A stretch of DNA of 64,000 nucleotides from positions 558,001 to 622,000 of the forward strand of contig NZ_JAMXMY010000001.1 of the NCBI RefSeq assembly GCF_024055795.1, written 5' to 3'. A model generated the notes under the pieces. It did no database searches. It had not been told where the DNA came from and saw only the letters and a list, made by a program, of their open reading frames with translations. Within the stretch, counting starts at the first letter, position 1, and each line of letters starts with the position of its first letter. The stretch comes from Actinoallomurus purpureus (GTDB lineage: Bacteria > Actinomycetota > Actinomycetes > Streptosporangiales > Streptosporangiaceae). A program made the position numbers and the translations under genes. Shown here piece after piece: positions 14,682 through 34,048 of this stretch.

Positions 14682-14802
14682 ACGACCGGCTCGGCTGAGG
14701 GCGACCGCGACGCGTGGCTCGGAGGCCGGGAAGATTAGGGTGGTGCATGTCGGCTCGCCTCGGCCGATGGCGAGCGTCGGCCCGAGCCGATCAGAGGCGG
14801 CC

Positions 14803-17136
14803 ATGACCACTGCCATGTCGATCACCTCGGGGCGAGGGCGTGATCTCGGACTCCCCGCCGAGGCGACCAGTTTCATCGGACGCCGGCACGAGATCGCCGA
14901 GGTCAAGCGTCTCGTGTCCGTCTCTCGCATGGTGACCCTCACCGGTCCGGGTGGTGTCGGGAAGACCCGGCTGGCCCTGCGGGTCGCCAACGACCTGCGG
15001 CGTGCCTTCCCCGAAGGCGTGTGGCTGGTCGAACTCGCGGAGCTGGACAACCCGGCGTTGCTGCCCCAGGCCGTGGTCGCCGCGCTGCGCATCGAGGACC
15101 GCACGGCCCACAGGCCCATCGAGGCACTGGTGGAGCATCTGGCCGGCGACCGGATGCTGGTGATCCTGGACAATTGCGAGCATCTGCTCCAGGAGACCGC
15201 CGTGCTGGCAGAGGCGCTGCTGCGCCGCGTTCCGGAGCTGCGGATCCTGGCCACCAGCCGCCAGCCGTTGGGGATCTTCAGCGAGCAGATGTTCACCGTG
15301 CCGATGCTGTCCCTGCCGGACGGCGGATCCCGGCCCGGCAGGCCCGGCACGTCGCCCGACGCCGTCCGGCTCTTCGCCGAGCGGGCCGGGGCGGTCCTTC
15401 CGGGATTCGCCGTCACGGAGCGGAACCGGGACGTCGTCGAACGGATCTGCCGTCGCCTGGACGGGCTGCCGCTCGGCATCGAGCTCGCCGCCGTGCGGCT
15501 GCGGGCACTGTCCCTTGAGCAGTTGCTCGACCGGCTGGACGACCGTTTCGGGCTGTTGTCCGCGGGATCGAGAGCCGTGGCGCCCCGGCACCAGACACTC
15601 CGCGCCCTGATCGACTGGAGCTACGCCCTGTGCACCGAGGAGGAGCGTCTGATGTGGGCGCGTGTCTCGGTGTTCACCGGCAGCCTGGACCTGGAGGCGG
15701 CCGAGGAGGTCTGTTCCGGAGACGGCATCGCCCGCGATGAGGTCGTCGGCCTGGCGATCGGCCTGGTCGAGAAGTCCGTCCTCGTCCGGGAGGAGTATCC
15801 GAGCGGCGTCCGGTACCGACTGCTCGACACCATCCGACAGTACGGCCGAGAGCGGCTGGCCGCCTCCGGGCAGGAGGCGACGATGAAACGGCGGTTCCGC
15901 GACTACTACCGGAACCTGTCGCGGGAGACGAAGGCGCGGCTGTTCGGCCCGGCGCAGGTCGAGCTGCTCACCCGGCTGCGAGTGGAGCATCCCAATCTTC
16001 GCACCGCCCTGGAGTACTGCCACGCCGAACACGCCGGACTGTGCATCGACATGGCCAGCGACCTGCTGTACCACTGGATCACCAGCTGTCACACCGGTGA
16101 GGGACGTGACTGGCTCGAACAGGGCCTCGCGGCCAGCGGCGGCCGCTCCGAGGTCAGGGCCCGGGCGCTCTGGGCGTGCAGCTGGCTCGCCATCATCCAG
16201 GGAGATCAGGGCTCGGCCAGGACGATGCTCGCGGAGAGCAAGGCCCTCGGCGAGCGACTCGGGCTGGAGCCGGTCCTCGGCTATGTCGCCCTCTACTCCG
16301 GGATGGTCGCCCTGAACCAGGGGGACGGCGCGGCGGCGGTCACGTGTCTCGAGGAGGCGGTGGCCCGTCATCGTGCCGCCCCGGACCCCCTTGGCGAGGC
16401 GCTGGCACTGAACCGGCTCTCCCTCGCCTACTCCTTCCTGGGGGATTCGAACCGTGCCATCGCCGCCGCCGAGGAGAGCCTGTCCGTCTGTGACGCCCAT
16501 GAGGAACGCTGGCACAAGGCGTACACGATGGCGGCCCTCGGCATCGAGGCCTGGCGCCAGGGTGACACCCGGCGGGCCGCCACCCTGGAGCGGGAGAGTC
16601 TGCGGTTCAACCGTTCGCTGGACGACTCACTCGGGGCGGGACTGAGCCTCGAGGTGCTGGCATGGATCGCCGGCACCGAACATGAGTACACACGCGCCGG
16701 GGAGATGTTGGGCATCCTGCGGACCGTCTGGGAGGCGGTCGGCGCGCCACTGCCGGGATACTCCCATCTCGCGCGCTACCACGATGAATGCGAGGCACGT
16801 ACGCTCCAGGCGCTCGGTGAGTCGGCCCTGCGCGCGGCCGTCGATCGAGGCGGGAGCCTCTCCTACGACGAAGCGCTCGCCTACGCTCTCGAGGAGCGCC
16901 GGCCCACGCCCGGCCGATCCGGCGGCGCGGACCGGTGGTCGCCTCTGACGCGACGTGAGACGGAGATCGCCCGGCTCGTCGCTCAGGGAATGAGCAACAA
17001 GGAGATCGCGGCGTCACTCGTGATCGCCCAGCGCACCGCCGAAGGTCACATCGAACACATCCTCCGGAAACTCGACTTCAGCTCCCGTGCCCAGATCGCC
17101 ACCTGGGTCACCGAGCAGGCCCCGACTGGGGACTGA
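14803..17136 (+). CDS. LuxR-family regulator with NB-ARC-type ATPase and TPR-like middle
   Basis: A 777-residue regulator. FIGRRHEIAEV leads into a P-loop GPGGVGKTR and Walker B MLVILDNCEHLL. A winged-helix region follows, then a helical TPR-like section, and a C-terminal LuxR helix-turn-helix LTRRETEIARLVAQGMSNKE. Such proteins act as ATP-dependent, ligand-sensing activators. ATG 14803 has agaggcgg upstream; an earlier in-frame start at 14740 lacks one. It lies 162 bp before fxsB on the same strand and may control the FxSxx cluster, which is inference from position only. Confidence 0.88.
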   Translation: MTTAMSITSGRGRDLGLPAEATSFIGRRHEIAEVKRLVSVSRMVTLTGPGGVGKTRLALRVANDLRRAFPEGVWLVELAELDNPALLPQAVVAALRIEDRTAHRPIEALVEHLAGDRMLVILDNCEHLLQETAVLAEALLRRVPELRILATSRQPLGIFSEQMFTVPMLSLPDGGSRPGRPGTSPDAVRLFAERAGAVLPGFAVTERNRDVVERICRRLDGLPLGIELAAVRLRALSLEQLLDRLDDRFGLLSAGSRAVAPRHQTLRALIDWSYALCTEEERLMWARVSVFTGSLDLEAAEEVCSGDGIARDEVVGLAIGLVEKSVLVREEYPSGVRYRLLDTIRQYGRERLAASGQEATMKRRFRDYYRNLSRETKARLFGPAQVELLTRLRVEHPNLRTALEYCHAEHAGLCIDMASDLLYHWITSCHTGEGRDWLEQGLAASGGRSEVRARALWACSWLAIIQGDQGSARTMLAESKALGERLGLEPVLGYVALYSGMVALNQGDGAAAVTCLEEAVARHRAAPDPLGEALALNRLSLAYSFLGDSNRAIAAAEESLSVCDAHEERWHKAYTMAALGIEAWRQGDTRRAATLERESLRFNRSLDDSLGAGLSLEVLAWIAGTEHEYTRAGEMLGILRTVWEAVGAPLPGYSHLARYHDECEARTLQALGESALRAAVDRGGSLSYDEALAYALEERRPTPGRSGGADRWSPLTRRETEIARLVAQGMSNKEIAASLVIAQRTAEGHIEHILRKLDFSSRAQIATWVTEQAPTGD

Positions 17137-17298
17137 CGGATAGGCCGGGAATAAGGTCCGACCGAAATATGGGCGAGATTGTGATGCGTGGAAGGCGGTC
17201 ATCATCCATGGTTGGGCGCTATTTCGCGATGCGAGCATATCGATCATAATTGCCGTACGCGCGACGCCGCGCGCTCAACGCACTGGGGGCTGATCGAC

Positions 17299-18510
17299 GT
17301 GGCAGACCGCACGGATGCGCTCGAATGGCCGATGAACCTCGACGTCGAGGCGTTGCTCCGCGACGGCTGGCACCCCACGCCGTTCCGGCAATTCATTGTT
17401 AAGATCCACAGCCGTTGCAATCTCGCTTGTGACTACTGTTACGTCTACGAAATGGCCGATCAGGGCTGGCGTGATCGGCCGCGCCGTATGACGCCGGCCA
17501 CCATCGCCCTCATCGCGTCCCGGATCGCCGAGCATGTCCGTGCGCACCGCATTCCAGAGGTCGATCTCATCTTTCACGGCGGTGAGCCGCTATTGGCCGG
17601 TATCGAGCTCATCCGGCACGCCGTCACCACGGTGAGGTCCGCCGTCGGTCCCGAGGCGTCGGTGAACGTCCGCGTGCAGAGCAACGGTCTGCTGCTCGAC
17701 TCCGCCTTCCTTCGCACCTTCGACGAGCTCGGCGTGCGGGTGGGGATCAGCCTCGACGGCGACGCGCGGGGCAACGACCGGCACCGTCGCCACGCCGACG
17801 GGCGCGGCAGCCACGACGAGGTACGGGCCGCTCTCGAGCGGCTGACCGCAGGACGGTACCGGCACCTGTTCGGCGGGCTGCTGGCAACGGTCGACCTGCG
17901 CAACGACCCGGTCGCCACCTATGAGGCACTGCTGGAGTTCGCGCCGGCGGAGGTCGACTTCCTGCTGCCGCACGGCAACTGGAACTCACCGCCGCCCGGA
18001 CTGTCGCCCGGCGAGCACGCGACCCCCTACGGAGACTGGCTCATCGCCGCGTTCGACCGCTGGTACGGCGCTCCGGTCAGGGAGACCCGCGTACGGCTGT
18101 TCGGCGAGATCATCCGATTGCTGCTCGGCGGGGCCTCCCGCATCGAGTCGGTCGGTCTCTCCCCGGTGGCCATGGTCGTCCTGGAGACCGACGGGAGCAT
18201 CGAGCAGGTCGACACTCTCAAGTCGGTCTACGAGGGCGCCTCCGCCACCGGCCTGCACGTCGCGCGGGACTCGTTCGACGCGGTGCTGCGGCTGCCGTCG
18301 GTCGCGGCTCGTCAGATCGGCGACCGGGCCCTGTCGGCGCAGTGCCGCGGCTGCGCCATCCGGCGGGTCTGCGGTGGGGGTCTGTACACGCATCGGTACC
18401 GCGCGGGCAGCGGGTTCGCCAATCCATCGGTGTACTGCGCCGACCTCGTACGCCTGATCACCCACGTGCACCAGGTGATCGCCGGTGACCTGAGGGAAGG
18501 GACCGCATGA
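17299..18510 (+). CDS. fxsB: FxsB-family radical SAM/SPASM peptide maturase
   Basis: A 403-residue radical SAM enzyme. FIVKIHSRCNLACDYCYVYE carries the CxxxCxxC cluster motif, FHGGEPLL is the GGE region, and CRGCAIRRVCGGG plus a later Cys form the SPASM domain. FxsB-family enzymes form a cyclophane crosslink in the C-terminal FxSxx core of a precursor peptide. GTG 17299 is chosen because a G-rich site lies upstream; a 37-codon in-frame extension to ATG 17188 looks non-coding. Its stop overlaps the HExxH gene by 4 bp. Precursor and FxsT genes lie 1.5-4.5 kb downstream, which supports the assignment. Confidence 0.92.
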   Translation: MADRTDALEWPMNLDVEALLRDGWHPTPFRQFIVKIHSRCNLACDYCYVYEMADQGWRDRPRRMTPATIALIASRIAEHVRAHRIPEVDLIFHGGEPLLAGIELIRHAVTTVRSAVGPEASVNVRVQSNGLLLDSAFLRTFDELGVRVGISLDGDARGNDRHRRHADGRGSHDEVRAALERLTAGRYRHLFGGLLATVDLRNDPVATYEALLEFAPAEVDFLLPHGNWNSPPPGLSPGEHATPYGDWLIAAFDRWYGAPVRETRVRLFGEIIRLLLGGASRIESVGLSPVAMVVLETDGSIEQVDTLKSVYEGASATGLHVARDSFDAVLRLPSVAARQIGDRALSAQCRGCAIRRVCGGGLYTHRYRAGSGFANPSVYCADLVRLITHVHQVIAGDLREGTA

Positions 18511-19910
18511 GACGACACCACGTACCCGCGAAGGTCTTCTACGCCCTGGCGGCCGGTGGCGGCGGCGCCCACGCCGTGGGTCATCTGCAGGCGGCGCAGT
18601 ACAGCAAGCGTCTGCTCCTCCTGCGTGCCGTACGGGACGCCGCGAGGGGGGAGGATCCCGTGCGGGCCCGGCGCGCGCGCCAGGCGTTCGCACTGCTGGC
18701 GGAGATCCAGCGGCAGGCTCCCGAGGCCGTGGACGCCGTCGTGCGGCACCCGGCCGTCGGAGCATGGGCGCGGGACGCGCTGCTCGGGTCGGGCGACACC
18801 GGCGGGCTGGCGGAACTGGCCGCCGCGGCGGCGGTGCGGGCCGGTTTCCCGCGGCCGGTGCAGGTGGTGGTGCGTGACGGTGCCGTCGTGCTGCCGTCCC
18901 TCGGCCGTGCGGTGCTCTCCGGCGACTCGGCCGCGGCGGCGGCTCGGCACGCGCCGGCCGATCGCGTTCGGCCACCCGGTCCGCTGACCGCGGCCGGCCG
19001 GGACATGCCGTCCGGGCCGGCCACGGCGACCGTGCGGCCCGGCCCCGGCCCCGGCCGGGCCGAGGTGATCGGGCCCGGCGGTCGGGTCCGGATTCCCGCC
19101 GACCCGCATCGGGACGCGCCGGGCTGGCAGGGGATACGGCGTCTGGAGGCCGAGTACCAGGGCATGGCGATCCGGCTGCTGCTGGACGACGTCGATCCGT
19201 ACCGGCTGCCCGGCGCCGGGATCAGGGCCTCACGGCCGGACGCGGAGGAACTGGACCTGTGGCGTTCCATGCTGAAGAGGGCCTGGCGGCTGCTGGTCCG
19301 CCGGCACTGGACGACGGCGGAGGAGGTCGCCGCCACCACGACCGTGCTGACCCCGCTCACCGCGCCCGATGAGGGGCTGAGCAGTGCGACGGCGACCGAG
19401 ACCTTCGGGGCGATCGGCGTGTCCGTCCCACCGGACGACCATTCTCTGGCGGTCAGCCTGGCGCACGAGGTGCAGCACGCCAAACTCGGCGCGCTGCTCG
19501 ACCTCGTCGAGCTGACCGGGCCGGACGACGGCAGGCGCTTCTACGCACCCTGGCGGGACGATCCTCGGCCGGCCTGGGGCTTGATCCAGGGCGTCTACGC
19601 GCACGTCGGGGTCGCCGGATACTGGCGCCGTCAGCGTGCGCACGAACAGGGCGATGTGGCGATGCGAGCGCACACCGAGTTCGCCCGCTGGCGGGACGCG
19701 TCGGTGCTGGTCGCTCGTACCCTGCAGTCGGGCGGTCTGCTCACGCCGGAGGGTGAGCTGTTCATGGCCGAGCTCACTCGCACGCTGCGCGTCTGGTGCC
19801 GCGAGCCGGTCCCGGCCGACGCGCTGGAGCGGGCCCACGCCGCCGCCGAGCAGCACCGGGAGCGGTGGCGGCGGCGTAACGGCGAGCCGGTCGGACCGAC
19901 GTCTCCCTGA
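18507..19910 (+). CDS. HExxH-motif protein (putative peptide beta-hydroxylase of the FxSxx system)
   Basis: A 467-residue protein with SLAHEVQHAKLGALLDLVEL, the HExxH motif of a family found with or fused to FxsB maturases. NCBI names such proteins as aKG-HExxH-type peptide beta-hydroxylases, which modify RiPP precursors. The middle (about residues 140-180) is Pro/Arg-rich and probably a linker. The start ATG overlaps the fxsB stop (ATGA), so the two are co-translated. In many relatives the two domains are one protein; here they are split. The exact chemistry on this precursor is inference. Confidence 0.85.
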   Translation: MRRHHVPAKVFYALAAGGGGAHAVGHLQAAQYSKRLLLLRAVRDAARGEDPVRARRARQAFALLAEIQRQAPEAVDAVVRHPAVGAWARDALLGSGDTGGLAELAAAAAVRAGFPRPVQVVVRDGAVVLPSLGRAVLSGDSAAAAARHAPADRVRPPGPLTAAGRDMPSGPATATVRPGPGPGRAEVIGPGGRVRIPADPHRDAPGWQGIRRLEAEYQGMAIRLLLDDVDPYRLPGAGIRASRPDAEELDLWRSMLKRAWRLLVRRHWTTAEEVAATTTVLTPLTAPDEGLSSATATETFGAIGVSVPPDDHSLAVSLAHEVQHAKLGALLDLVELTGPDDGRRFYAPWRDDPRPAWGLIQGVYAHVGVAGYWRRQRAHEQGDVAMRAHTEFARWRDASVLVARTLQSGGLLTPEGELFMAELTRTLRVWCREPVPADALERAHAAAEQHRERWRRRNGEPVGPTSP

Positions 19911-20041: not shown

Positions 20042-22621
20042 TCAGATCGGCGGAGGGTCGAAGTCGCAGTCCAGATGCCGTCCCTCGAGGGCCACGACCG
20101 CGTCGGGGTGATCGGGGCCCAGGACCCGGGCGTATCGATCGATCGTGTCCTCGAAGAGCCGCGTTCCCTCGTCCTCCGCGCCGTCCGCCCGTAGGTCGGC
20201 CGACAGGTTCGCGGCGCAGGCGAGCGTCATCGGATGATCCTCGCCCAGCAGGGCGCGTAGGCGGCGCAGAGTGCCGCGCCCGAGCCGGCACGCCGACTCC
20301 AGGTCGCCCAGGGCCGCCAGGTCGCTGGCGAGGTTGGTGGCGATCGTGAGGGAGTAGTGGTGGTCGCGGCCGAGCTTGGCCTCCAGACCGAGGAGGGACT
20401 TCTCGTTGAGCTCCCGTGCGCGTCGTACCTCTCCGGCGACCCGCAGCAGCAGCGCCAGGTTGCACGCGCAGCCGTGATAGTACGGGTGATCGATGCCGTA
20501 GACCTTCGGGTAGAGGTCCAGCGTCTCGGAGACCAGTTCGAAGGCCTTCTCGGTCTCTCCGATGCTGCGCAGGACGTTGGCCAGGCAGGTGGCGGAGGCC
20601 AGGGAGTCGGGGTGATCGAGGCCGAAGAGCCGCAGGTAACGTGCGTGGACGTCATCGGCCACCTCGATGGACGCGTCGAGCAGCCCGGCGCGGCGGCGGG
20701 CGATGGCGAGGTCCTTGGCCGTCCTCAACGTCCACGGGTGCTCGGCCCCCAGCTCCTCCGAGCCGTACGCGTGGGCGTCCTCGCCGAGGTCGCAGGACTC
20801 ACGGTAGCCGCCCGCGAGGCGGACGGCGCGGGCCAGCCCGCTCCATGAGCTGAGGATGTCCGCCCTGCCGATGCCGGGCGGCCCGGCCCACATCTCCAGG
20901 TAACACTTCTCGTGCGTCCCGCGGGCGGCCAGGTAGTCGCTCGCCAGACCGTGGTCCAGCGCCAGGTTGTTCATCACGCGCAGGGTGTTCGGGTGCTGCG
21001 GCCCGAACGCGTCCAGGTGCCGGCCAAGGGACTCCTGGTCATGGTCCCGCGCGGCGAAGAAGTCGCCGGCGGCCCGCAGGTCCGCGCCGATGCTGTTGAG
21101 CAGCAGCAGCAACGAGGCCTGCCGGCCGGGATCGTCGACTGCACTCGGCTCCATCCGGGCGAGCGTCTCCTGATTGAGCTCATAAGCCTCGGTGAAGCGC
21201 CCGAGTTCGCGGACGATGATGCCGCGCTGCCGCCGGGCGTCGACCACGTCGGCATCGTCGTCTCCGGAGTCGGCGCTCCAGCGTTCCTCGAAGCGCCGCA
21301 CGAAGATCTCGGCCGACCGGTAGTCACCGGAGAGGTAGAGGTAGTCGACGAAGTTGAGGGCGAGCCGGCGTACCGCGCCGTCACGGCTCTCGGCCACCCC
21401 CGACGGCTCGACGTGAGCCAGGAGTTCGAAGTAGCGGTTCCAGGTGGTGGTGTCCTCCGGCGCCGTGGGGGTCGCCGTGACCAGGAGACGGTGCACCTCC
21501 TGACGAATGCGCCCCTGCTCGTCCTGTGGCATCCCGTCGCGTACGAGTGCCTGGATCAGCCGGTGGACCTGAATCGTGCGCCCGGGAGTGTCGACCCGAG
21601 CGAGGGCGTACCGCCCCAGCTCCCCGATCGTGCGGCTGAGCCGGATCGGATCGCCGAGCAGGTCGGCCAGTTGCTCGTCGAGGCCCGGCGGGACCCGGCT
21701 GAACACCGCACGCGGGATCGGCTCGGGGCCGAACATCGCGCAACAGCGCAGCAGCTCGACCGCCTCGGGTAGCTTCTCGCTCAGCTTGGCCACCGACAGC
21801 GCCCAGGCGGCCGTCATCGAGACGGGGTACTCCGTCGGCTTGCCCTCGGCCAGCAGCTGGCTGGTCCGTCCCGAGAGCAGCCGGAGATACTCCTCGACCG
21901 TCATTCCCGTCTCGGCCTGCAGCGCCGCGGCCTGCTCCAGCGCCAAGGGCAGGTCGCCCAGCGCCTCCGCCAGGCGGTCGGCGTCGCCGGGGCTCATGGC
22001 GCGGGGGACCCGCTTGTTCAGGAACTCGATGCTCTCCTCGCGGGTGAAAACGTCGACGGCGACCGTGTCGACGACGCCCTTCCACCGGTGGTTGCGCGAG
22101 GTGATGATCGCGTGGCCCGGCCCGTGCGGTATGACGTCGCTGATGTCCTCCGGCTGGTCGGCGTTGTCGAAGATGAGCAGCCACCTGGAGTAGGGATCGC
22201 CGCGACGCAACCGGTCCAGCACGGCGTTGGCGGCGTCCTCGATGCCGGTGGTCGTGGCGGGCGGCAGCCCGAGGAAGGGCGCGAGGCCGGCCAGTGACGA
22301 GCGTACGAGCACGGGCTGGTCGCAGGGGATCCACCACACCAGGTCGTATTCGGAGCGGTAGCGGTACGCGTACTCCACCGTCATCTGCGTCTTACCGACA
22401 CCGCCGAGGCCGTGGAGGGCATGCGGCACCACCGCGGTGACGTCACCGGCGATGCCCGCTCGGAGCTTGGCGAGGAGTTCCTCGCGTCCGGTGAAATTCA
22501 TGTTGCGCGGTGGGATCCGTCCCCAGATCTCCGGCGTGCGTCCCGCCGGCCGTCCTGTGTACGCCGAACCTGCCACGGATTTCGCCTCCGCGTCGCTATT
22601 CATCCGCTTTTGGTGTGCCAT
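20042..22621 (-). CDS. fxsT: FxsT: FxSxx-COOH system NB-ARC/tetratricopeptide repeat protein
   Basis: An 859-residue protein. The opening PEIWGRIPPRNMNFTGREELL, P-loop HGLGGVGKTQ (about residues 70-79), Walker B WLLIFDNAD, and FTREESIEFL match the NB-ARC part of FxsT. The C-terminal half is at least eight TPR units with the repeated LG-DHP turn, ending CDFDPPPI, which resembles the usual FxsT tail. The family is a STAND-type NTPase of the FxSxx system and probably senses or scaffolds the peptide. ATG 22621 is chosen (GGGG upstream); 22603 is an alternative and the longer frame to 22792 looks non-coding. It is divergent from fxsA. Confidence 0.93.
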   Translation of the reverse strand: MAHQKRMNSDAEAKSVAGSAYTGRPAGRTPEIWGRIPPRNMNFTGREELLAKLRAGIAGDVTAVVPHALHGLGGVGKTQMTVEYAYRYRSEYDLVWWIPCDQPVLVRSSLAGLAPFLGLPPATTTGIEDAANAVLDRLRRGDPYSRWLLIFDNADQPEDISDVIPHGPGHAIITSRNHRWKGVVDTVAVDVFTREESIEFLNKRVPRAMSPGDADRLAEALGDLPLALEQAAALQAETGMTVEEYLRLLSGRTSQLLAEGKPTEYPVSMTAAWALSVAKLSEKLPEAVELLRCCAMFGPEPIPRAVFSRVPPGLDEQLADLLGDPIRLSRTIGELGRYALARVDTPGRTIQVHRLIQALVRDGMPQDEQGRIRQEVHRLLVTATPTAPEDTTTWNRYFELLAHVEPSGVAESRDGAVRRLALNFVDYLYLSGDYRSAEIFVRRFEERWSADSGDDDADVVDARRQRGIIVRELGRFTEAYELNQETLARMEPSAVDDPGRQASLLLLLNSIGADLRAAGDFFAARDHDQESLGRHLDAFGPQHPNTLRVMNNLALDHGLASDYLAARGTHEKCYLEMWAGPPGIGRADILSSWSGLARAVRLAGGYRESCDLGEDAHAYGSEELGAEHPWTLRTAKDLAIARRRAGLLDASIEVADDVHARYLRLFGLDHPDSLASATCLANVLRSIGETEKAFELVSETLDLYPKVYGIDHPYYHGCACNLALLLRVAGEVRRARELNEKSLLGLEAKLGRDHHYSLTIATNLASDLAALGDLESACRLGRGTLRRLRALLGEDHPMTLACAANLSADLRADGAEDEGTRLFEDTIDRYARVLGPDHPDAVVALEGRHLDCDFDPPPI

Positions 22622-22941
22622 CCTATGCCCCGGCCTCAACGGCCATCCAGGGTGAAGCGGGCGTGTCCTTGATGCCGGCTGAACGAGGTGTCGGCGGACT
22701 CGCGGGATGTGGCCTGAATTCCTTAATTCGGTCGACAATAAATTGGTATTCGGAAAGTCCGAAATCTGCTCCTTGGTCGCGGATCGAGACAATCGCCGCT
22801 CAGGGTATTAAACGATTCGCCGACGTGCTTGAATCGTAGACAAGGGCCGCCGGTGCGTCCCTGGCGAGGCGGCCGACGCGTTCCGGCCGGCCCTCCGGCG
22901 CGGGCCGCGGAAGACCCCGGCGGCGAGCAGAAGGAGTGCGC
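22622..22941. promoter_or_regulatory. Divergent promoter region of fxsT and fxsA
   Basis: This 320-bp spacer is AT-richer than its flanks around 22710-22770. TTCGGA-AAG-TCCGAA (22749-22763) is a perfect inverted repeat, a possible operator serving both directions. AAGGAG at 22931-22936 is the fxsA ribosome site. No other gene is seen. Confidence 0.55.
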
Positions 22942-23109
22942 ATGCGCGAAGAGACCGACTTCGGCGGCGGAATCATCGATCTTTCCGGCTTCTCGCTGAA
23001 GGACCTCGACGACCTTGCCGACTCGGCCCTCGCGGCGGAGCTGCGCGAGGTGCTCGACTCCTCGCGGTGCGACGCGGGCGTCGTGGCCGGATTCAACTCC
23101 ACGGTATAG
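22942..23109 (+). CDS. fxsA: FxsA: FxSxx-COOH RiPP precursor peptide
   Basis: A 55-residue peptide with AAGGAG five bases before the ATG. The leader is acidic and helical (IIDLSGFSLKDLDDLADSAL, then AAELREVLDS), and the protein ends GFNSTV, an exact F-x-S-x-x-COOH terminus. In this family FxsB crosslinks the core Phe and Ser regions into a cyclophane. It lies divergent from fxsT and is followed, 40 bases after its stop, by the nSTAND1 gene. The exact crosslink, any hydroxylation and any cleavage are not shown by sequence. Confidence 0.93.
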   Translation: MREETDFGGGIIDLSGFSLKDLDDLADSALAAELREVLDSSRCDAGVVAGFNSTV

Positions 23110-23149: not shown

Positions 23150-25153
23150 ATGGGGTCACTGACCTCTCCACCGGACGACCCGGATACCTTTCCGTATCCG
23201 GGGCTGCGCCCTTTCGTGGAAAAAGATCGTGGACGGTTCTTCGGGCGAGACGAGGAAGTCCGCGAGCTCGCGCGAATGTGGCGGCGAACCCGCATCACCG
23301 TCCTGTACGGCGAGAGCGGTGTGGGCAAGACCTCTCTCATCCGCGCGGGTGTGCTGCCCTGGCTGGCGCGGGAGGCGGCCAACGTGCTCCCCGTCGGAGC
23401 CGTCTCACGCGCTTTCACCTTCCCCGCGGCGGCCCTTCCGGAGCACAACCCCTACACGCTCGCCCTGCTGTCATCCTGGTCGCCGACCGAATCGCCGACC
23501 ATGCTGTCCGGCATGTCGATCGGCGCGTTCCTGCGTCGGCAACGGCGCACCGGCCGGTTCGGCGAGCCGCTGCCGACCCTGGTCGCGATCGACCGGGCCG
23601 AACGACTGTTCCGCAACGCCGATCCGGATCTCATCGGTCCATTCTTCGACGAACTCATCGAGGCCCTGAAGCACCGTCCGGACACCCACCTGCTCCTGTC
23701 CGTACGCGAGGACCATCTCGAGGACGCCCTGCAGATCGTCAAGCTGCTCGGGAGCGAGTTCTGCGCCCAGTTCCCGCTACCGCCGCTCGATCGGCGACGG
23801 GCGCTGGGGGCCATCGTCCGGCCGCTGGAAGACGTCGGCCGTCGTCTCGATCCGGAACTCGCGGCGCAGGTCATCGACGCGTTGGTCCTTCCGTCCGCCG
23901 ACGGCTCCGCCGAGGTCGTCGAACCGGTGCTGCTCCAGGTGGTCTGCCGGAGCCTGTGGGAACGGCTGCCCGCCGATGCGCGGGTCCTGACCGATCGGAT
24001 GCTTCCGGACCTGACCGAGGCGCTCGAATCGCTGTGCGCGCACGTCGTGACGGCCGTCGCGGCGAATCACGGCACGCGCCCGGGAAACCTCGTCTCGTGG
24101 TTGCGCGACACCTTCCTCAGACCGTCCGGGCGGGTGGCGGTGCACGAGGGATCCACTCATACCTCCGGCATGGCCAACTCCGTCGTGCACTCGATCGAGG
24201 ACGGATACCTCGTCAAGGGGCGGTGGCGCGACGGAGCCCGGTGGTATGAATTGCGGCACCCCCTGCTCATCGCGCCGATCCGGCGGCTGGTGACCGCGCA
24301 GTGGCCGATCCCGCCCTCGGACCCGGCGGGTCGACTGACCGCGGCGAAGGCGGCCCTGTCCGACGGCGATATCACGCTCGCCCGGCGGCACGCCGAAGGG
24401 GCGGTGGCGGCCTGCGACCGCGGCGACATGCGGATCCGTGGTGAGGCCGAATCCCTGCTGGGAAACATCGCCAATGAGGAAGGCGACGTCAAAGGTGCGA
24501 TCGAGCACTATCGCACGGCGGCGAGCCTCTTCGAGGCACTGCAGGACACCCCGTCCGTCGGACGCCTGCTGGCGGCGGTGGGGCGGCTCCGGCTGACTCA
24601 GGGGAAACGCGGCGAGGCGGTCGAAGACCTCGAGGCCGCCGTCGGGCGGATGCCGAACGATCCGACGGTGCAGGCCGGGCTCGGCCGCGCCCTGTGGTAC
24701 GCCGGGCAGCCCAAGGCGGCGCTGGCCGTGCTGGACGGCGTGCTACGGCGCGACGGTGACGCGCCTGAGGCACTGCGGGCACGCGGGGAGATCCTCGCCG
24801 ACCTCGGTGAGGCGGCATCGGCGCTTCGCGACCTCGACCGGATCGACCGGCGCGCCTCTCCGTCCGCGCGCGCGGCGCGTGCGCTGGCCCTGGCCACCCT
24901 CTCGAAGGTGGAGGCGGCTCGGCGCGAGCTCGACGACATCCTCGCCGAGGCCGCCGGCAGCGGGCCGGTGCTGTTGCGCGCGGCCCGGACCGAGCGCCTG
25001 TGCGGGGACATCCGAGCCGCCGCACGGCTGGCCGCCCGCGCCCTCGATGCGGACGATCCGCCGCTGCCGCCGCACCAGCGGGCAGAGGCGGTCCAGGTAT
25101 CCCGCCTTGTTGCATTCGGCACCTCTCCGGCCCCCCGCTCCACTCATCCTTGA
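23150..25153 (+). CDS. nSTAND1-type NTPase with C-terminal TPR repeats
   Basis: A 667-residue protein. YPGLRPFVEKDRGRFFGRDEE is the classic nSTAND1 opening, followed by P-loop GESGVGKTS (about residues 54-62) and Walker B TLVAIDRAERLF. The ATPase and winged-helix region runs to about residue 400. TPR-like repeats follow (NEEGDVKGAIEHYRTAASLF, then EDLEAAVGRMP). There is no obvious effector domain such as protease, TIR or nuclease. It lies 40 bp downstream of fxsA on the same strand, and the membrane gene follows after 3 bp. STAND proteins often act in immunity or signalling; its role with the peptide is inference. Confidence 0.88.
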   Translation: MGSLTSPPDDPDTFPYPGLRPFVEKDRGRFFGRDEEVRELARMWRRTRITVLYGESGVGKTSLIRAGVLPWLAREAANVLPVGAVSRAFTFPAAALPEHNPYTLALLSSWSPTESPTMLSGMSIGAFLRRQRRTGRFGEPLPTLVAIDRAERLFRNADPDLIGPFFDELIEALKHRPDTHLLLSVREDHLEDALQIVKLLGSEFCAQFPLPPLDRRRALGAIVRPLEDVGRRLDPELAAQVIDALVLPSADGSAEVVEPVLLQVVCRSLWERLPADARVLTDRMLPDLTEALESLCAHVVTAVAANHGTRPGNLVSWLRDTFLRPSGRVAVHEGSTHTSGMANSVVHSIEDGYLVKGRWRDGARWYELRHPLLIAPIRRLVTAQWPIPPSDPAGRLTAAKAALSDGDITLARRHAEGAVAACDRGDMRIRGEAESLLGNIANEEGDVKGAIEHYRTAASLFEALQDTPSVGRLLAAVGRLRLTQGKRGEAVEDLEAAVGRMPNDPTVQAGLGRALWYAGQPKAALAVLDGVLRRDGDAPEALRARGEILADLGEAASALRDLDRIDRRASPSARAARALALATLSKVEAARRELDDILAEAAGSGPVLLRAARTERLCGDIRAAARLAARALDADDPPLPPHQRAEAVQVSRLVAFGTSPAPRSTHP

Positions 25154-25156
25154 ACC

Positions 25157-25681
25157 ATGCCGGACACCGCATTGGTCGCGTTGTTCACCGGGGCGTCCAC
25201 CGCCATCGCGGCACTGGTCGGAGTCGGCTCGCAGCTGCTCGGGGAGAGCCGGCGGGCGCGGCACGAGCTCGAGCGGGTGCGCGACGCCCGCGACGCGGAA
25301 CGCGCGGCGGAACGCGAGCAGCGGCTCCGGCGCGGTACCGACCGGGTGCGGGCCGCCGTGCTCAGGCTCGCGGTGACCGTGCGCGTCTGCGCGGACATCC
25401 GCCGCGACCAGCACGCGCGCCTGCACGAGCGCGACCTGATCGACATGTTGGGTCAGGCACGCGATCACTATTACCGGGCGAACGTACGGATCGAGGCACT
25501 GCGTGCGCTCGTCGGCGGTAGTGCCGAGGCGGTGGCCGCGATCGAGGGGCTGCTGTCGGCGGTCACGGAAGCCTACGAGCACGTTCGCTCGGCGAGCAGC
25601 GAGCAGGCTGATCCAGAGCTGGTGGAGAAGCGGATCCGTTCCGAGCTGCGGAGGGTGTCCGAGGCCGTACTCGCCGAGTGA
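25157..25681 (+). CDS. Membrane-anchored coiled-coil protein of the FxSxx locus
   Basis: A 174-residue protein of unknown family. One N-terminal transmembrane helix (about residues 4-27) is followed by a charged RRARHELERVRDARDAERAA coiled coil and a helical C-terminal part. It starts 3 bases after the STAND stop, so it is co-translated and a probable partner. Its 3' end overlaps the convergent MFS gene by 119 bp. A membrane effector or anchor role is only a guess. Confidence 0.7.
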   Translation: MPDTALVALFTGASTAIAALVGVGSQLLGESRRARHELERVRDARDAERAAEREQRLRRGTDRVRAAVLRLAVTVRVCADIRRDQHARLHERDLIDMLGQARDHYYRANVRIEALRALVGGSAEAVAAIEGLLSAVTEAYEHVRSASSEQADPELVEKRIRSELRRVSEAVLAE

Positions 25682-27107
25682 ACTGCCCGGAGGCGACCGG
25701 CCCGGGCGCCGGGCCGGAGCCTGCCAGGTCGTCCACGTGGGCCGGGCCCTGTGCCGCCGGCGGGTCATGGGAGGCAGCCAAGTCCTGCCCGGCCTCCGGG
25801 CCGTACGCACCGGCCGGATCGTGCATGGCGCGGGGCAGGTCAGGCGGGTCCAGGGCGCCGGTCTGGACGGCCGTCACGGTCGGCAGGAGCGACCGGCGGA
25901 CCGTGAGGACCACCGCGGTCGCGCCGATGACGCCCACGGCGCCGATCAGTGTGCCCTCGGTGCCGACCGTCGCGATGACGTAACCACCGCAGAGGGTGCC
26001 GAGCGGGACGGCGCCCAGGGACAGGAAGCGGTTGGCTCCGGCCACGCGGCCCAGCAACCTCGGTGGTATTCGCGACGCCTGGTAGGTGTCCAGGGCGACG
26101 TTCATGTGCGCGCCCATGAAGCCGACCCCGCCCCACGCGAACAGCCACACCCACGGGTGCGATGAGGCGGCGATGACCGCGATGAGAGCGGTCCAGACCC
26201 ACGCGCAGGCGACGATCACCACGGTCGAACCTCTGCTCCGCAGGACCGCCGGGGCGAAGACGGTGCCGACGATGCCGCCGAGACCCGGCGCCGCCAGCAT
26301 CGCGCCGATCATGATCGACGGGAGACCGTGCTCCTTGCCGAGGATGACCAGGAGCACGACGACGGCCTGGAAGACGAAATTGGTGATCGTGCAGACGGTG
26401 AGGGCGGTGCGCAGGAAGAGGTCCGTCCAAAGCCGGGCGAGCCCCTCGATGAGGTCCCGCACGAGCGCGCGCACGCCTCGCCGCCGCGCCGCGACGTCGG
26501 TGATCAGGAACCGGTCGGCCCGGATGGACCCGAGCGCCCCCGCGGAAACGAAACAGCAGACCGCGTCGACGAGGAACGGGATCGTACGACCCAGGCTGTA
26601 CAGCAGTCCCCCGAGCGGTGATCCGAGGAGCAGAGCGACATGGCTCCGGGCCTCATTGGTCGCCATGGCCTCGGACAACCGCTCACGCGGCACGATCTGT
26701 GCGACGGCGCTGACCTCGGCCACGCTGTAGAACGTCAGGCAGATTCCACTGATGGCCGCCGCGCACGTGAGCAGGGACATCGACCGCTCGCCGGCCAGCA
26801 GGAACACGGTCAGGGTCGCCGCCACCGCTCCCCGGAGCAACTGACTCACCAGCATGATGCGCCGGCGGTCCAGCCGGTCGGCCAGGACTCCCGCCGGCAG
26901 GTGCAGCAGCAGGTTGGGCAACGTCCCGGCGGCCGCGACCCAGCCGGCGGCCACCGGCGATCGCATCATCGACAGGGCGAGCAGCGGCCCGGCGACGCTG
27001 GCGCTCATGCTTCCGAGCAGCGACACCGCCGAGCCGCTCCAGAGCAGCAGGAAGTCGTGCCGCCATCGGACGTGGCCTACGGCGGCGGGCGGATCACCGG
27101 GCGGCAT
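25563..27107 (-). CDS. MFS transporter (MFS_3/EntS-like exporter)
   Basis: A 514-residue major-facilitator protein with about twelve helices. FLLLWSGSAVSLLGS in TM1, LPAGVLADRLDRRRIMLVSQ in the loop, and RIPPRLLGRVAGANRFLSLG in the second half fit the MFS_3/EntS family. The C-terminal 110 residues are Pro/Ala-rich and unlike the family, and overlap the convergent coiled-coil gene by 119 bp; the tail may come from a lost stop. Its substrate is unknown, and export of an FxSxx product is possible only by location. Confidence 0.85.
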   Translation of the reverse strand: MPPGDPPAAVGHVRWRHDFLLLWSGSAVSLLGSMSASVAGPLLALSMMRSPVAAGWVAAAGTLPNLLLHLPAGVLADRLDRRRIMLVSQLLRGAVAATLTVFLLAGERSMSLLTCAAAISGICLTFYSVAEVSAVAQIVPRERLSEAMATNEARSHVALLLGSPLGGLLYSLGRTIPFLVDAVCCFVSAGALGSIRADRFLITDVAARRRGVRALVRDLIEGLARLWTDLFLRTALTVCTITNFVFQAVVVLLVILGKEHGLPSIMIGAMLAAPGLGGIVGTVFAPAVLRSRGSTVVIVACAWVWTALIAVIAASSHPWVWLFAWGGVGFMGAHMNVALDTYQASRIPPRLLGRVAGANRFLSLGAVPLGTLCGGYVIATVGTEGTLIGAVGVIGATAVVLTVRRSLLPTVTAVQTGALDPPDLPRAMHDPAGAYGPEAGQDLAASHDPPAAQGPAHVDDLAGSGPAPGPVASGQFTRRVRPRTPSAARNGSASPPALDQPARCSPSERARRLP

Positions 27108-30630: not shown

Positions 30631-31176
30631 GACGCAGCGGTGCGGGCGATGTATGAGACCAACGTGTTCGGTGTCCTTGCCGTACAGCGTGCCGTGCTGC
30701 CTGTGCTGCGACGCCAGCGTTCTGGGCACGTGATCAACGTCAGTTCCATCGTGGGTTTTGCGACGGCGCCGGGCTGGGGTGTTTACGCGTCGTCGAAGTT
30801 CGCCGTCGAGGGGTTCACCGAGACTCTCGCGACCGAGCTGGCGCCTTTGGGTGTGCATGTGACGCTCGTGGAGCCGGGCTTCTTCCGCACCGACTTCCTC
30901 GACCCGGCCAGCCTGAACACCGACGTCGAGGTGATCGATGACTACGCGGCCACGGCCGGCGCGATGCGTGATGCCGCTGCGGGCCTCAACCACGCCCAGC
31001 CCGGCGACCCGGCCAAGGCGGCCCGGGCCATCGTCGAGATCGCCTCCGCTTCCCAGCCGCCACTGCGACTCCAACTCGGAGCCGACACCCTGCAGGCGTT
31101 CGAAGCCAAGCTGGACAGCTTCCACAAGGAACTGGACGCCTGGCGGCACGTCGCCCTCTCCACCGACCACGACTAA
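30631..31176 (+). pseudogene. N-terminally truncated short-chain dehydrogenase
   Basis: About 180 residues of a classical SDR: METNVFG-type YETNVFGVLAVQRAVLPVLR, the catalytic Ser in VINVSSIVGF, Tyr and Lys in YASSKFAVEGF, and PGFFRTDF. The first 80-90 residues, including the NAD(P) GxxxGxG motif, are missing, and the frame is closed by TGA at 30616. GTG 30640 could start translation but the product would not bind cofactor. The upstream ATG at 30615 is in another frame. This looks like a deletion of the 5' part of the gene. Confidence 0.82.
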
Positions 31177-31204
31177 AACCAACAAGGCTCTACCCGTGGC
31201 CAAT

Positions 31205-34048
31205 ATGGATGGCACGGATTCGATGAACGGACCCGACTCATGCCAGGGAGCAGCGACGGCCGGCCCTCTTCAGCGCCTTAGGGTTTGTCCAGTGGACGAG
31301 CTGTTCGGGCGGGACGAGGAATGTGGTCGGCTGGCGGCAGCGCTCGAGGATGCCCGGCAGGGGATGAGTGCGGTCGTCGTACTGCGGGGCGGGCCCGGGA
31401 CCGGCAAGAGCGCACTGCTCGATCACGTTCGGTCCACGGCGGCCGCCGACTTCGAGATCATGCGTTTCGACGCCGTGGAATCTGAGACCGAGCTCGGTTT
31501 CGCCGCGCTGCACCAGCTGCTCAGGCCGCATTTGGCTCAGCTGTCCACGTTGCCCGATCCGCAGCGTGACGCACTGTGCCAGGTGTTCGGGCTTCAGGAG
31601 CGGACCAGTCCGCCGGACCGTTTCCTCGTCGGGCTGGCCTCGCTCGGGCTGCTGGCCGCGCGCGCCGAGAACGGCCCGTTGCTGTGCCTGGTGGATGACG
31701 CCCACTGGCTCGATGAGGAGTCCGCGGCGGTGCTCGCCTTCGTGGCTCGCCGGCTGTACGCGGACTCCGTCGCGATGGTGTTCGCCGTCCGGGATCAGAC
31801 GGATCGCGTCGACCATCTGGCGGGGCTGCCTGAGCTGGCCGTGACCAGTCTGGGTGCGGAAGCGGCCGGGCGGCTGCTGGAATCGGCGGTGTCCGGTGTC
31901 CTGGATCCAGACGTCCGCAGCCGGGTGGTCGTCTCTACCGGAGGCAATCCTCTCGCCTTGATCGAGGCGGCCCGGGAACTGAGTTCCGATCAGCTCAGCG
32001 GTGAGGCGCCGTTGCCGGAGCCCATCCCGCTCGGCCGGGCCCTGGAACGGAAGTACCTGCGCGAAGCGCTGGCGCTGCCACCGCAGACGCGGACTCTGCT
32101 GCTGGCCTCCGCGGCCGACCCCACGAGTGATCCGAACGTGCTGTGGCGGGCCGGTCCGGAACTGGGCTTCGATGCGACCGCCGCCGCGGCCGCCGAGGAG
32201 CGGCACCTCCTTTCGATCCGGGAGACCGTCAAGTTCCGCCATCCTCTGATCCGCTCGGCCGTCTATTACGGCGCCCCGCTGTCGCAGCGTGCGAGGGTCC
32301 ACGCCGCTCTGGCCGAGGTCGCGGGAGACCTCGGCGAAGTCGACCTGCGCGCCTGGCACTTGGCGGCGGCGGCAACCGACCCGGACGACGTCGTGGCGAC
32401 GGAGCTCGAACGCGCCGCGGAGCGCATCCGCGATCGCGGCGGCTGGACCGGCAGTTCGACGCTTCTGGCGCGAGCCGCATCCTTGACGCCGGACCTGCCC
32501 ACCCGTGCCCGCCGCCTCCTGGCGGCGGCGGAGGCCAGCGCCGTGGCCGGCTCACCCGGACGAGCCCAGGCCCTGCTCGACGAGGCGGCCGCCCACCGCG
32601 AGGACCGGCGCTACACCGGCGTGCTGCAGCGCGTTCAAGCGCGGATCCACCGTCTTATGGGCGCGCCGGCGGCGGCGACCTACTCCCTGTTGGCGGCGGC
32701 CCGGGAGCTGGGATCCGTCGACATCCGGCTTGCTCGCGACATCCTCGTGGAAGCGCTCGTCCAGGCGCAGATCAGCGGCTCGCTCGCGCCGCAGGGTGCA
32801 TCACGCCTCAGCGTGGCCGAGACGGTCCGTTCCCTGCCGCTTCCTGCCGGGACACCGGCTACGACGGGCGACGCGGTGCTCGAAGCCGACACGGCGGTCC
32901 ATCTCGAAGGACTCGGCGGCGCAGGCCCGCGGCTTCAGCAGGCCATTGAGGCGGTACGGCGTGAGGAGTCGACGGATCCTGAACTGTTCCAGTGGCTGGC
33001 CGCAGCCTGCTCGCACGCGACCATCCTCGGCGACGACATCGCCCTGCACGAACTCGCCTGGCGGCTGGAGGCTGAAGCCCGGCGGCAAGGTGCCGTCATC
33101 CCGATGGCCCTGGCCCTCAGCCACACGGCGCTGTCCGAGCTGATCGCCGGCCGCATCGCGGAATCGGAGCGCCTGTTCGACCAGTCTGCGGCGCTGGAAG
33201 AAGCCCGGGGTTCACAGCTGTACCTGGGCGCCCTGCTCGTCGCCGCGTGGCGCGGACGGTTCGAGGAGGCCCGTGCACTGACGGAAGCCGTCCAGGAGCA
33301 CGCCGCCCGCACCGGCCAGGGGTATCAGCTGATCTTCTACGACTACGCACGCAGCGTGATCGAGCTGAGCCAGGGCCGGTACCACGAGGCGTACCTCAGT
33401 CTGGAGGACAAGATCGGGGACACCTGCCAGGTCAAGTTCGCCCTTGTCGACATGGTCGAGGCAGCGGCCCGTTGCGGCAAGGACGACGAGGCGACGCGTC
33501 TGCTGGAACGCCTGTCCCATCTCGCCGACAGGAGCCCCGTTCCGGGCCTGCTCGGTGACCTTGCCCGCGCGCAGGCACTGACCACCGCCGACCCCTCGGC
33601 TGCGGAAGAGCTGTACCTGCGGGCCATCCGGCATCATGAGAACACTCGGGGCCCGTCGCGCAGGGCGCGGAGCCATCAGCTCTACGGGGAATGGCTACGG
33701 CGAGAGCGCAGAACCAAGGAGGCGCGTTACGAACTGCGGATCGCCTATGAGCTCTTCGACGGAATGGGCGCTCAAGGCTACGCGGCCCGTACGGCACAGG
33801 AGCTTTACGCGGCCGGCGATCCGGTTCAGTCCCGTGGGGACGCGCACGGCGGTGGCAGTCGGCTGACTCCCCAGGAGGCGCGTGTCGCCCGCTTGGCGGC
33901 CGGCGGGGCCACGAACGCGGAGATCGCGGCCCAGCTGTACCTCAGCGTGCATACCGTGGACTACCACTTGCGGAAGGTGTTCCGGAAACTCGACGTCCAT
34001 TCCCGGCGCGAGCTGGCCGACCGGCGAGATCGCATCACCTCGGCGTAG
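31205..34048 (+). CDS. Large LuxR-family ATPase regulator
   Basis: A regulator of about 947 residues. LFGRDEECGRLAAAL leads to the P-loop GGPGTGKSA and Walker B LLCLVDDAHWLDEES, an AAA/STAND ATPase. A long helical region follows, then a C-terminal LuxR domain LTPQEARVARLAAGGATNAE. Such LAL-type proteins activate metabolic or secondary-metabolite genes. The start is uncertain: 31205 and 31223 (ATG) and a GTG at about 31290 are in frame, none with a strong ribosome site. It follows the broken SDR on the same strand. Confidence 0.88.
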   Translation: MDGTDSMNGPDSCQGAATAGPLQRLRVCPVDELFGRDEECGRLAAALEDARQGMSAVVVLRGGPGTGKSALLDHVRSTAAADFEIMRFDAVESETELGFAALHQLLRPHLAQLSTLPDPQRDALCQVFGLQERTSPPDRFLVGLASLGLLAARAENGPLLCLVDDAHWLDEESAAVLAFVARRLYADSVAMVFAVRDQTDRVDHLAGLPELAVTSLGAEAAGRLLESAVSGVLDPDVRSRVVVSTGGNPLALIEAARELSSDQLSGEAPLPEPIPLGRALERKYLREALALPPQTRTLLLASAADPTSDPNVLWRAGPELGFDATAAAAAEERHLLSIRETVKFRHPLIRSAVYYGAPLSQRARVHAALAEVAGDLGEVDLRAWHLAAAATDPDDVVATELERAAERIRDRGGWTGSSTLLARAASLTPDLPTRARRLLAAAEASAVAGSPGRAQALLDEAAAHREDRRYTGVLQRVQARIHRLMGAPAAATYSLLAAARELGSVDIRLARDILVEALVQAQISGSLAPQGASRLSVAETVRSLPLPAGTPATTGDAVLEADTAVHLEGLGGAGPRLQQAIEAVRREESTDPELFQWLAAACSHATILGDDIALHELAWRLEAEARRQGAVIPMALALSHTALSELIAGRIAESERLFDQSAALEEARGSQLYLGALLVAAWRGRFEEARALTEAVQEHAARTGQGYQLIFYDYARSVIELSQGRYHEAYLSLEDKIGDTCQVKFALVDMVEAAARCGKDDEATRLLERLSHLADRSPVPGLLGDLARAQALTTADPSAAEELYLRAIRHHENTRGPSRRARSHQLYGEWLRRERRTKEARYELRIAYELFDGMGAQGYAARTAQELYAAGDPVQSRGDAHGGGSRLTPQEARVARLAAGGATNAEIAAQLYLSVHTVDYHLRKVFRKLDVHSRRELADRRDRITSA

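Follow-up and report, generated by a model that had tools for sequence, protein, structure and literature searches.

In a 64,000-nucleotide stretch of the genome of Actinoallomurus purpureus (hereafter, the window), a 55-codon open reading frame (ORF) located at positions 22942-23109 of the forward strand is almost certainly an fxsA gene. As judged from its sequence, it would encode a new family member among the FxsA precursors of a known class of enzyme-crosslinked peptides, the FxSxx-COOH cyclophane ribosomally synthesized and post-translationally modified peptides (RiPPs). The ORF lies immediately upstream of a gene coding for a STAND ATPase with an nSTAND1 domain and TPR repeats, and genes of this type proved to be recurrent neighbors of the fxsB maturase gene in related genomes. 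Taken as a whole, the explanation that joins the FxsA identity, the formation of a cyclophane on the peptide and a role of this peptide as a ligand of the STAND ATPases is one that we moderately favor, as a compromise between parts of unequal strength.

The fxsA gene and its locus

A sequence-only reading of this DNA had proposed, at this place, a small ORF with a strong ribosome site, an acidic leader and an F-x-S-x-x terminus, and had named it FxsA. We recovered each of these features. The ORF has the coordinates given above, and a ribosome-binding site, AAGGAG (22931..22936, + strand), read from the sequence, lies 5 nt 5' of its ATG. The translation, MREETDFGGGIIDLSGFSLKDLDDLADSALAAELREVLDSSRCDAGVVAGFNSTV (55 aa), ends with FNSTV just before the stop codon, which places F-x-S-x-x at the extreme C terminus, as in FxSxx precursors. 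A leader-like region containing GIIDLSGFSLKDLDDL precedes the C-terminal core, F51-N52-S53-T54-V55 (23092..23106, + strand), and the part ahead of the core is acidic, with 12 D/E vs 4 K/R as counted by eye. The comparison with the NCBIfam model TIGR04268, proposed by the same reading, gave 29.8 bits (E 5.2e-7) for a curated cut-off of 28, and the score was still 28.5 bits when 15 N-terminal residues were added to the peptide.

When the whole genome (9.25 Mb) was searched in six frames, two places passed the TIGR04268 cut-off, i.e., this fxsA and C11:324108. In the same search of 14 control genomes, no place was over the cut-off, and 8 of the 14 showed weak matches (E up to 10). That the ORF is a chance reading frame without function is hardly conceivable: it is short and barely exceeds the TIGR04268 cut-off, but a profile built from 16 relatives, the window sequence being excluded, recovered it at E 9.9e-16 among 22,419 ORFs. 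Moreover, peptides of the same genus, 46-51% identical to FxsA, occupy the same slot directly upstream of a STAND relative in three genomes (G001, G004, and G007). As the score of the ORF is over the curated cut-off for a model used in NCBI annotation, the public annotation may well already contain this fxsA. In the plasmid collection, a search with the FxsA peptide gave no match.

The neighborhood is also the one that had been announced, with a divergent fxsT on one side, a STAND gene on the other and fxsB 4.4 kb away. The fxsB gene (17188..18510, + strand), coding for a radical S-adenosylmethionine (SAM)/SPASM cyclophane-forming maturase without fused hydroxylase, reaches 481.7 bits with TIGR04269 (cut-off 370), to which we take the entry IPR026335 to correspond. 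Hence, an FxsB-family maturase is encoded in the same locus as the precursor. The next gene (18507..19910, + strand) codes for an HExxH protein in which the motif reads HEVQH, and which scores 157.7 bits (cut-off 40) with TIGR04267, a model named peptide beta-hydroxylase in NCBIfam. On the opposite strand, fxsT (20042..22792, - strand) codes for an NB-ARC STAND ATPase with TPR repeats (NF040586, 1013.5 bits, cut-off 300); its TTG start is doubtful, the conserved part starting near residue 92. The fact that TIGR04268, TIGR04269, TIGR04267, and NF040586 all exceed their cut-offs in a single locus supports the explanation that we favor.

The nSTAND1-TPR ATPase gene (23150..25153, + strand; PF20703, E 5e-36, 125.6 bits for a gathering cut-off of 27.1) starts 40 nt 3' of the fxsA stop codon, and this spacing suggests that the two genes are carried on one transcript. 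The protein contains a Walker A motif, GESGVGKT. In an AlphaFold2 model made from two sequences, a TPR helical solenoid is well predicted at about residues 390-656, and the nucleoside triphosphatase part has a predicted local distance difference test (pLDDT) value below 50. The order fxsB, HExxH gene, fxsT, fxsA, STAND gene, gene of a 174-aa protein, and MFS transporter gene (the last two are presented below) is kept in an Actinoallomurus metagenome-assembled genome (L017).

STAND and SIR2 genes at fxs loci

We searched 149 related genomes for relatives of the STAND protein (threshold E 1e-40) and of FxsB (threshold E 1e-60). STAND relatives were found in 39 genomes, at 56 places, these place counts being lower bounds, as at most 8 or 3 STAND candidates per genome were scored, depending on the search. 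FxsB was found in 60 genomes, at 109 places, two of which are under the curated cut-off. A large part of the STAND places (48 out of 56) lie within 15 kb of an fxsB gene, and among the eight others three are on contigs shorter than 10 kb and one is at 2.5 kb from a contig end. Counted by genome, 38 carry both genes, one the STAND gene only, 22 fxsB only, and 88 neither (Fisher p 1e-18, a value that is indicative only since the genomes are related to each other). In a class-level set of 345 genomes, which overlaps the first one, an fxsB gene is close to 38 of 45 STAND places; for the genomes without match in the first set, the count is 25 of 30.

For 26 high-scoring FxsB places with a long frame, which by frame length likely correspond to a fused FxsB-hydroxylase form, a STAND gene lies within 11 kb at three, and the contigs concerned carry another fxsB near that STAND gene. 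For the other 83 FxsB places, a STAND gene is found within 11 kb at 47. We conclude that the nSTAND1-TPR protein marks a subtype of FxSxx loci and is not a universal part of them. One record of the plasmid collection carries STAND relatives, with no annotated features there, and none of eight profiles (FxsB, HExxH, FxsT, fxsA, SIR2, MFS, P174, and C24) matched within 10 kb of them. In Nonomuraea gerenzanensis (NZ_LT559118.1), an nSTAND1-TPR relative (L163:9950-11635, + strand) has no other system parts found within 10 kb.

The 79 loci examined contain 73 STAND places, at which partner genes were counted. Most of these loci were fetched around STAND hits, and the counts show the companions of the STAND gene and not its frequency. 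The rows L017, L068, L110, L119, L135, and L102 were left out, as duplicate or overlapping stretches or short contigs. Leaving out L068 and L110 cost both STAND places of genome G027, on contigs shorter than 5 kb, and leaving out L102 cost one real STAND place (G051:C57:25585), with a peptide ending in FxSSAL about 1 kb upstream. FxsT is present at 70 of the 73 places, divergent and within 2 kb at 65; the HExxH protein is present at 66, FxsB at 64, and an fxsA candidate at 62. The functional motifs are well kept, i.e., a Walker A pattern in 70/73 STAND rows and 71/71 FxsT rows, HExxH in 67/67 rows, and CxxxCxxC in 64/64 FxsB rows. At 41 of the 73 places, no more than 1.3 kb separates fxsA from the STAND gene downstream of it; at 17, fxsA is found 5-8 kb upstream, near fxsB, and 15 of these belong to a single family (f19).

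SIR2-STAND-type defense is a known kind of defense system. A gene resembling those of SIR2, an NAD-degrading enzyme family, stands next to the STAND gene and on its strand at 30 of the 73 places; at 26 of these, the matched parts are within 100 nt of each other. The three members that were tested match Pfam SIR2_2 (E 1.1e-23, 4e-25, and 1.6e-29), with ThsA of the Thoeris system as best PADLOC match, and for one member the PDB matches include the ThsA chains 8wc0, 6lhx, and 8bto. The TTNYD and HLHG motifs of this same member align with ThsA at Asn 112 and His 152, by count along 6lhx, which we take to be the catalytic residues of this chain. Both catalytic-type motifs are kept, as scored, in 24 of the 30 SIR2 genes. 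In a quick STAND tree, the SIR2 state changes seven times and all 30 SIR2 rows are gathered in a single branch (37 rows, support 91). These relatives thus resemble Thoeris ThsA and SIR2-STAND defense by the SIR2 gene next to a STAND ATPase gene. They differ by the coupling to a RiPP locus, and the window itself differs in having no SIR2 gene beside its STAND gene.

Some of the SIR2 genes deserve a separate mention. In family f19, those of L143, L144, L145, L146, and L149 have a changed Asn or His motif and possibly code for inactive enzymes. At L100:7270-9963 (+ strand), just upstream of the nSTAND1 gene, an FxsT-like protein bears, as a C-terminal fusion, a SIR2-like domain with motifs that are apparently lost. 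We also considered SIR2 and small membrane proteins as interchangeable effectors, the two being found at 30 and 13 of the 73 places, respectively, with an overlap of 0 (Fisher p 5e-4). This exclusion was not used because both are clustered in the tree (seven changes for SIR2, three for the membrane proteins) and because the alignment between the two membrane families covers just 13 columns.

Possible role of the peptide and competing explanations

FxSxx precursors have been described together with radical SAM/SPASM enzymes and AP-ATPases with TPRs, in modules either tied to VMAP or standalone, and a peptide toxin or signal was predicted (PMC7159879). The window locus is similar to these modules of ternary conflict systems by its FxSxx precursor, its radical SAM/SPASM enzyme, and its AP-ATPase with TPRs. 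It differs by the extra nSTAND1-TPR gene, to which a SIR2 gene is added in a subset of the relatives. The main text of that paper contains none of the words SIR2, sirtuin, and nSTAND, and the VMAP components vWA and MoxR were found in none of the 20 window proteins scanned with Pfam, which are a part of the genes of the region. Compared with the FxSxx-COOH cyclophane RiPPs (TIGR04268/TIGR04269), the precursor, the maturase, the HExxH family, and FxsT match the curated models, whereas fxsB and the HExxH gene are separate in the window and the precursor gene stands beside the nSTAND1-TPR gene. For an FxSxx locus type with an nSTAND1-TPR ATPase, plus SIR2 in a subset, we found no earlier description in a literature search that left subscription papers mostly uncovered, so that its novelty is not proven; no other paper on an association of FxSxx, STAND, and SIR2 stood among the matches listed. 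In what we saw of the literature, a function of FxSxx peptides has only been predicted (PMC7159879), and biological function is not addressed for the triceptides presented below (PMC11002830).

The chemistry can be proposed from characterized relatives. MscB, an enzyme of IPR026335, joins C4 of Phe to the C-beta of Ser (PMC11002830). By analogy, FxsB would couple the ring of Phe51 to the C-beta of Ser53 and produce a three-residue cyclophane, and the HExxH enzyme would hydroxylate a beta carbon of the precursor. The predicted Phe-Ser (i to i+2) C-C link is like those of the triceptides made by MscB-type 3-CyFE enzymes (PMC11002830); we regard the formation of the cyclophane on FxsA as very probable. 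The following steps are suggested by the locus architecture. The modified peptide, or its precursor, would stay inside the cell and act as a ligand that sets the on/off state of FxsT and/or the nSTAND1-TPR protein through their TPR solenoids, the C-terminal repeats being usually the signal-binding part of STAND proteins, as stated for eukaryotic ones (PMC7159879). The STAND switches would then act in a conflict- or immune-type response, with the adjacent ThsA-like SIR2 protein as the output in a subset of relatives, and the 174-aa putative membrane protein as the candidate output in the window.

We advance this ligand role tentatively, as a possibility to which we give a little less than even weight. 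A still more specific version, that of a RiPP-gated immune or cell-death switch, appears doubtful. In it, the cyclophane peptide would be the endogenous ligand of a bacterial NLR-like module and would hold or flip the nSTAND1-TPR ATPase (with FxsT), which in turn would govern, in a large subset of the relatives, a SIR2 NADase similar to ThsA. The interest of such proposals is that the recurrent tie to STAND ATPases, with SIR2 in a subset, makes one function of FxSxx peptides testable, in which the crosslinked peptide would trigger or lock an immune-type switch from within the cell; rather than an antibiotic, the peptide may be a signal used internally.

Several observations weigh against a ligand role. 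At 36 of the 83 FxsB places mentioned above no STAND gene lies within 11 kb, and in family f20 none of 21 FxsB-bearing genomes has a STAND protein at E 1e-40; therefore, FxSxx modification as such can do without the STAND protein. The adjacency of fxsA and the STAND gene is not universal either, since in most f19 loci fxsA is near fxsB, 5.8-7.6 kb off the STAND gene. In addition, 11 of the 73 STAND rows have no fxsA profile match. Among these, L105, L106, and one of the two rows of L112 contain an ORF of FxN type between fxsT and the STAND gene, L089 comes from a contig of 9.2 kb, and the weak TIGR04268 match of L115 falls outside its stretch. Concerning SIR2, six of the 30 genes, i.e., the fused L100 copy and the five f19 copies, are without a motif as scored. 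The window STAND protein belongs to another branch of the tree, which holds 21 rows and no SIR2. A profile search of positions 8001-36000 found no SIR2 gene, and hence none beside the window STAND gene, the extra gene at this place being that of the 174-aa protein. The STAND protein of the window has no PADLOC match at E 0.01, and none below 0.027 when the limit was raised. Finally, 24 of the 73 places have an MFS relative no more than 1.3 kb beyond the STAND gene, on its downstream side, which fits an exported product.

This last observation, with the convergent MFS gene of the window, is what would be expected of an ordinary secreted RiPP, antibiotic or intercellular signal, exported by the MFS protein, the STAND-TPR proteins only regulating the cluster; the STAND protein with a LuxR DNA-binding domain encoded beside fxsB (14740-17136) would suit this too. 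We consider such a scheme rather unlikely. The 49 remaining places, some of them contig ends, have no MFS gene within 1.3 kb, and the strand of the MFS gene varies. Neither FxsT (9 Pfam matches) nor the nSTAND1 protein (the best 25 of 29) has a helix-turn-helix DNA-binding domain among its listed matches, if a weak match to BTAD (E 0.069) is left out of account. Moreover, 30 places with a SIR2 gene next to the STAND gene would be unexpected if the latter coded for a mere regulator of biosynthesis. The SIR2 association is equally left unexplained if FxsT and the nSTAND1-TPR protein are maturation accessories whose task is to present FxsB and the hydroxylase with the precursor, the product having its target elsewhere. 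Two NCBIfam names do count TPR proteins among the components of such systems (NF040586, FxSxx_TPR; NF041717, "cyclophane-containing RiPP biosynthesis TPR protein"), and FxsT, present at 70 of the 73 STAND places, is well conserved. However, the nSTAND1 gene is missing near the 36 FxsB places and from the f20 genomes, and related maturases and precursors co-expressed in E. coli yielded crosslinks (PMC11002830), so we find the accessory role improbable.

The HExxH protein could also be seen as a metallopeptidase that releases the C-terminal peptide from the precursor, the released peptide being itself a toxin. This would follow the view of a zincin-like metallopeptidase cleaving a small protein as the core of the system, for which a peptide toxin or signal was suggested (PMC7159879). 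The current NCBIfam name of TIGR04267, alpha-ketoglutarate HExxH peptide beta-hydroxylase, and the alpha-ketoglutarate dependence reported for related HEXXH enzymes (PMC12636437) go the other way, and we regard this alternative as very improbable.

Precursor variety and further genes

The FxsA candidates of related loci vary more than the class name implies. The termini of the 62 candidate rows are FxSxx in 27 cases, FxAxx in 6 (L085, L088, L104, L113, L118, and L129), FxNxx in 4 (L098, L101, L108, and L114), HxSxx in 2 (L099 and L107), FxQxx in 1, FxDxx in 1, and other or extended in 21, including one precursor counted twice. Two F-x-S cores are present near the C terminus in L152, L157, and L158, where fxsA is upstream of fxsB, i.e., a multi-core FxsA in family f19. 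At E 0.001, TIGR04268 matches 40 of 61 distinct candidates and misses 21; the candidates of L133 and L137, without an F-x-x core, are doubtful. In characterized triceptides, Phe-Asn, Phe-Ser, and His-Ala links have been reported (PMC11002830), which makes the variant termini chemically plausible by analogy. By their FxN, FxA, HxS, extended, or two-core tails, these loci depart from the FxSxx-COOH rule, and searches relying on it would be broadened by including them. A fixed C-terminal pattern was rejected as an fxsA detector: [FHYW]x[SN] followed by 2-3 residues was found in only 23 of 43 fxsT-STAND gaps, and the profile found more. ORFs ending with the pattern amount to 27/279 in the gaps vs 141/6947 in whole loci.

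Downstream of the STAND gene of the window, the 174-aa protein (25157..25681, + strand) has, by eye, a hydrophobic N-terminal stretch followed by a charged helix, and is a putative membrane protein of no family. No match of it in NCBIfam or Pfam goes below E 0.06, and PADLOC gave nothing at E 0.01. Its profile matches in four other loci, always just downstream of the STAND gene, and, speculatively, it may be a membrane effector or partner. The convergent MFS transporter gene (25563..27107, - strand; PF07690, E 4.9e-32) may code for an exporter. Further downstream, a 1036-aa regulator with AAA_16 and LuxR domains according to Pfam is encoded at 30938-34048 (+ strand). On the other side of the locus, beside fxsB, the LuxR-type NB-ARC-TPR STAND protein (14740-17136, + strand) reaches 85.8 bits with the HaaT model NF041717, far under its cut-off of 1125.

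The genome carries other fxs loci. The second FxsA (L014:10070-10285, + strand; G000:C11:324108) has a VGFQN core followed by an extended tail, and the 19 kb stretch around it contains no nSTAND1-TPR gene. A third fxsB (L015:9899-10990, + strand; G000:C2:99901) lies in a 19.9 kb stretch without fxsA profile match. Relatives of the LuxR-type STAND protein adjoin or neighbor both of these other fxsB genes (L014 and L015).
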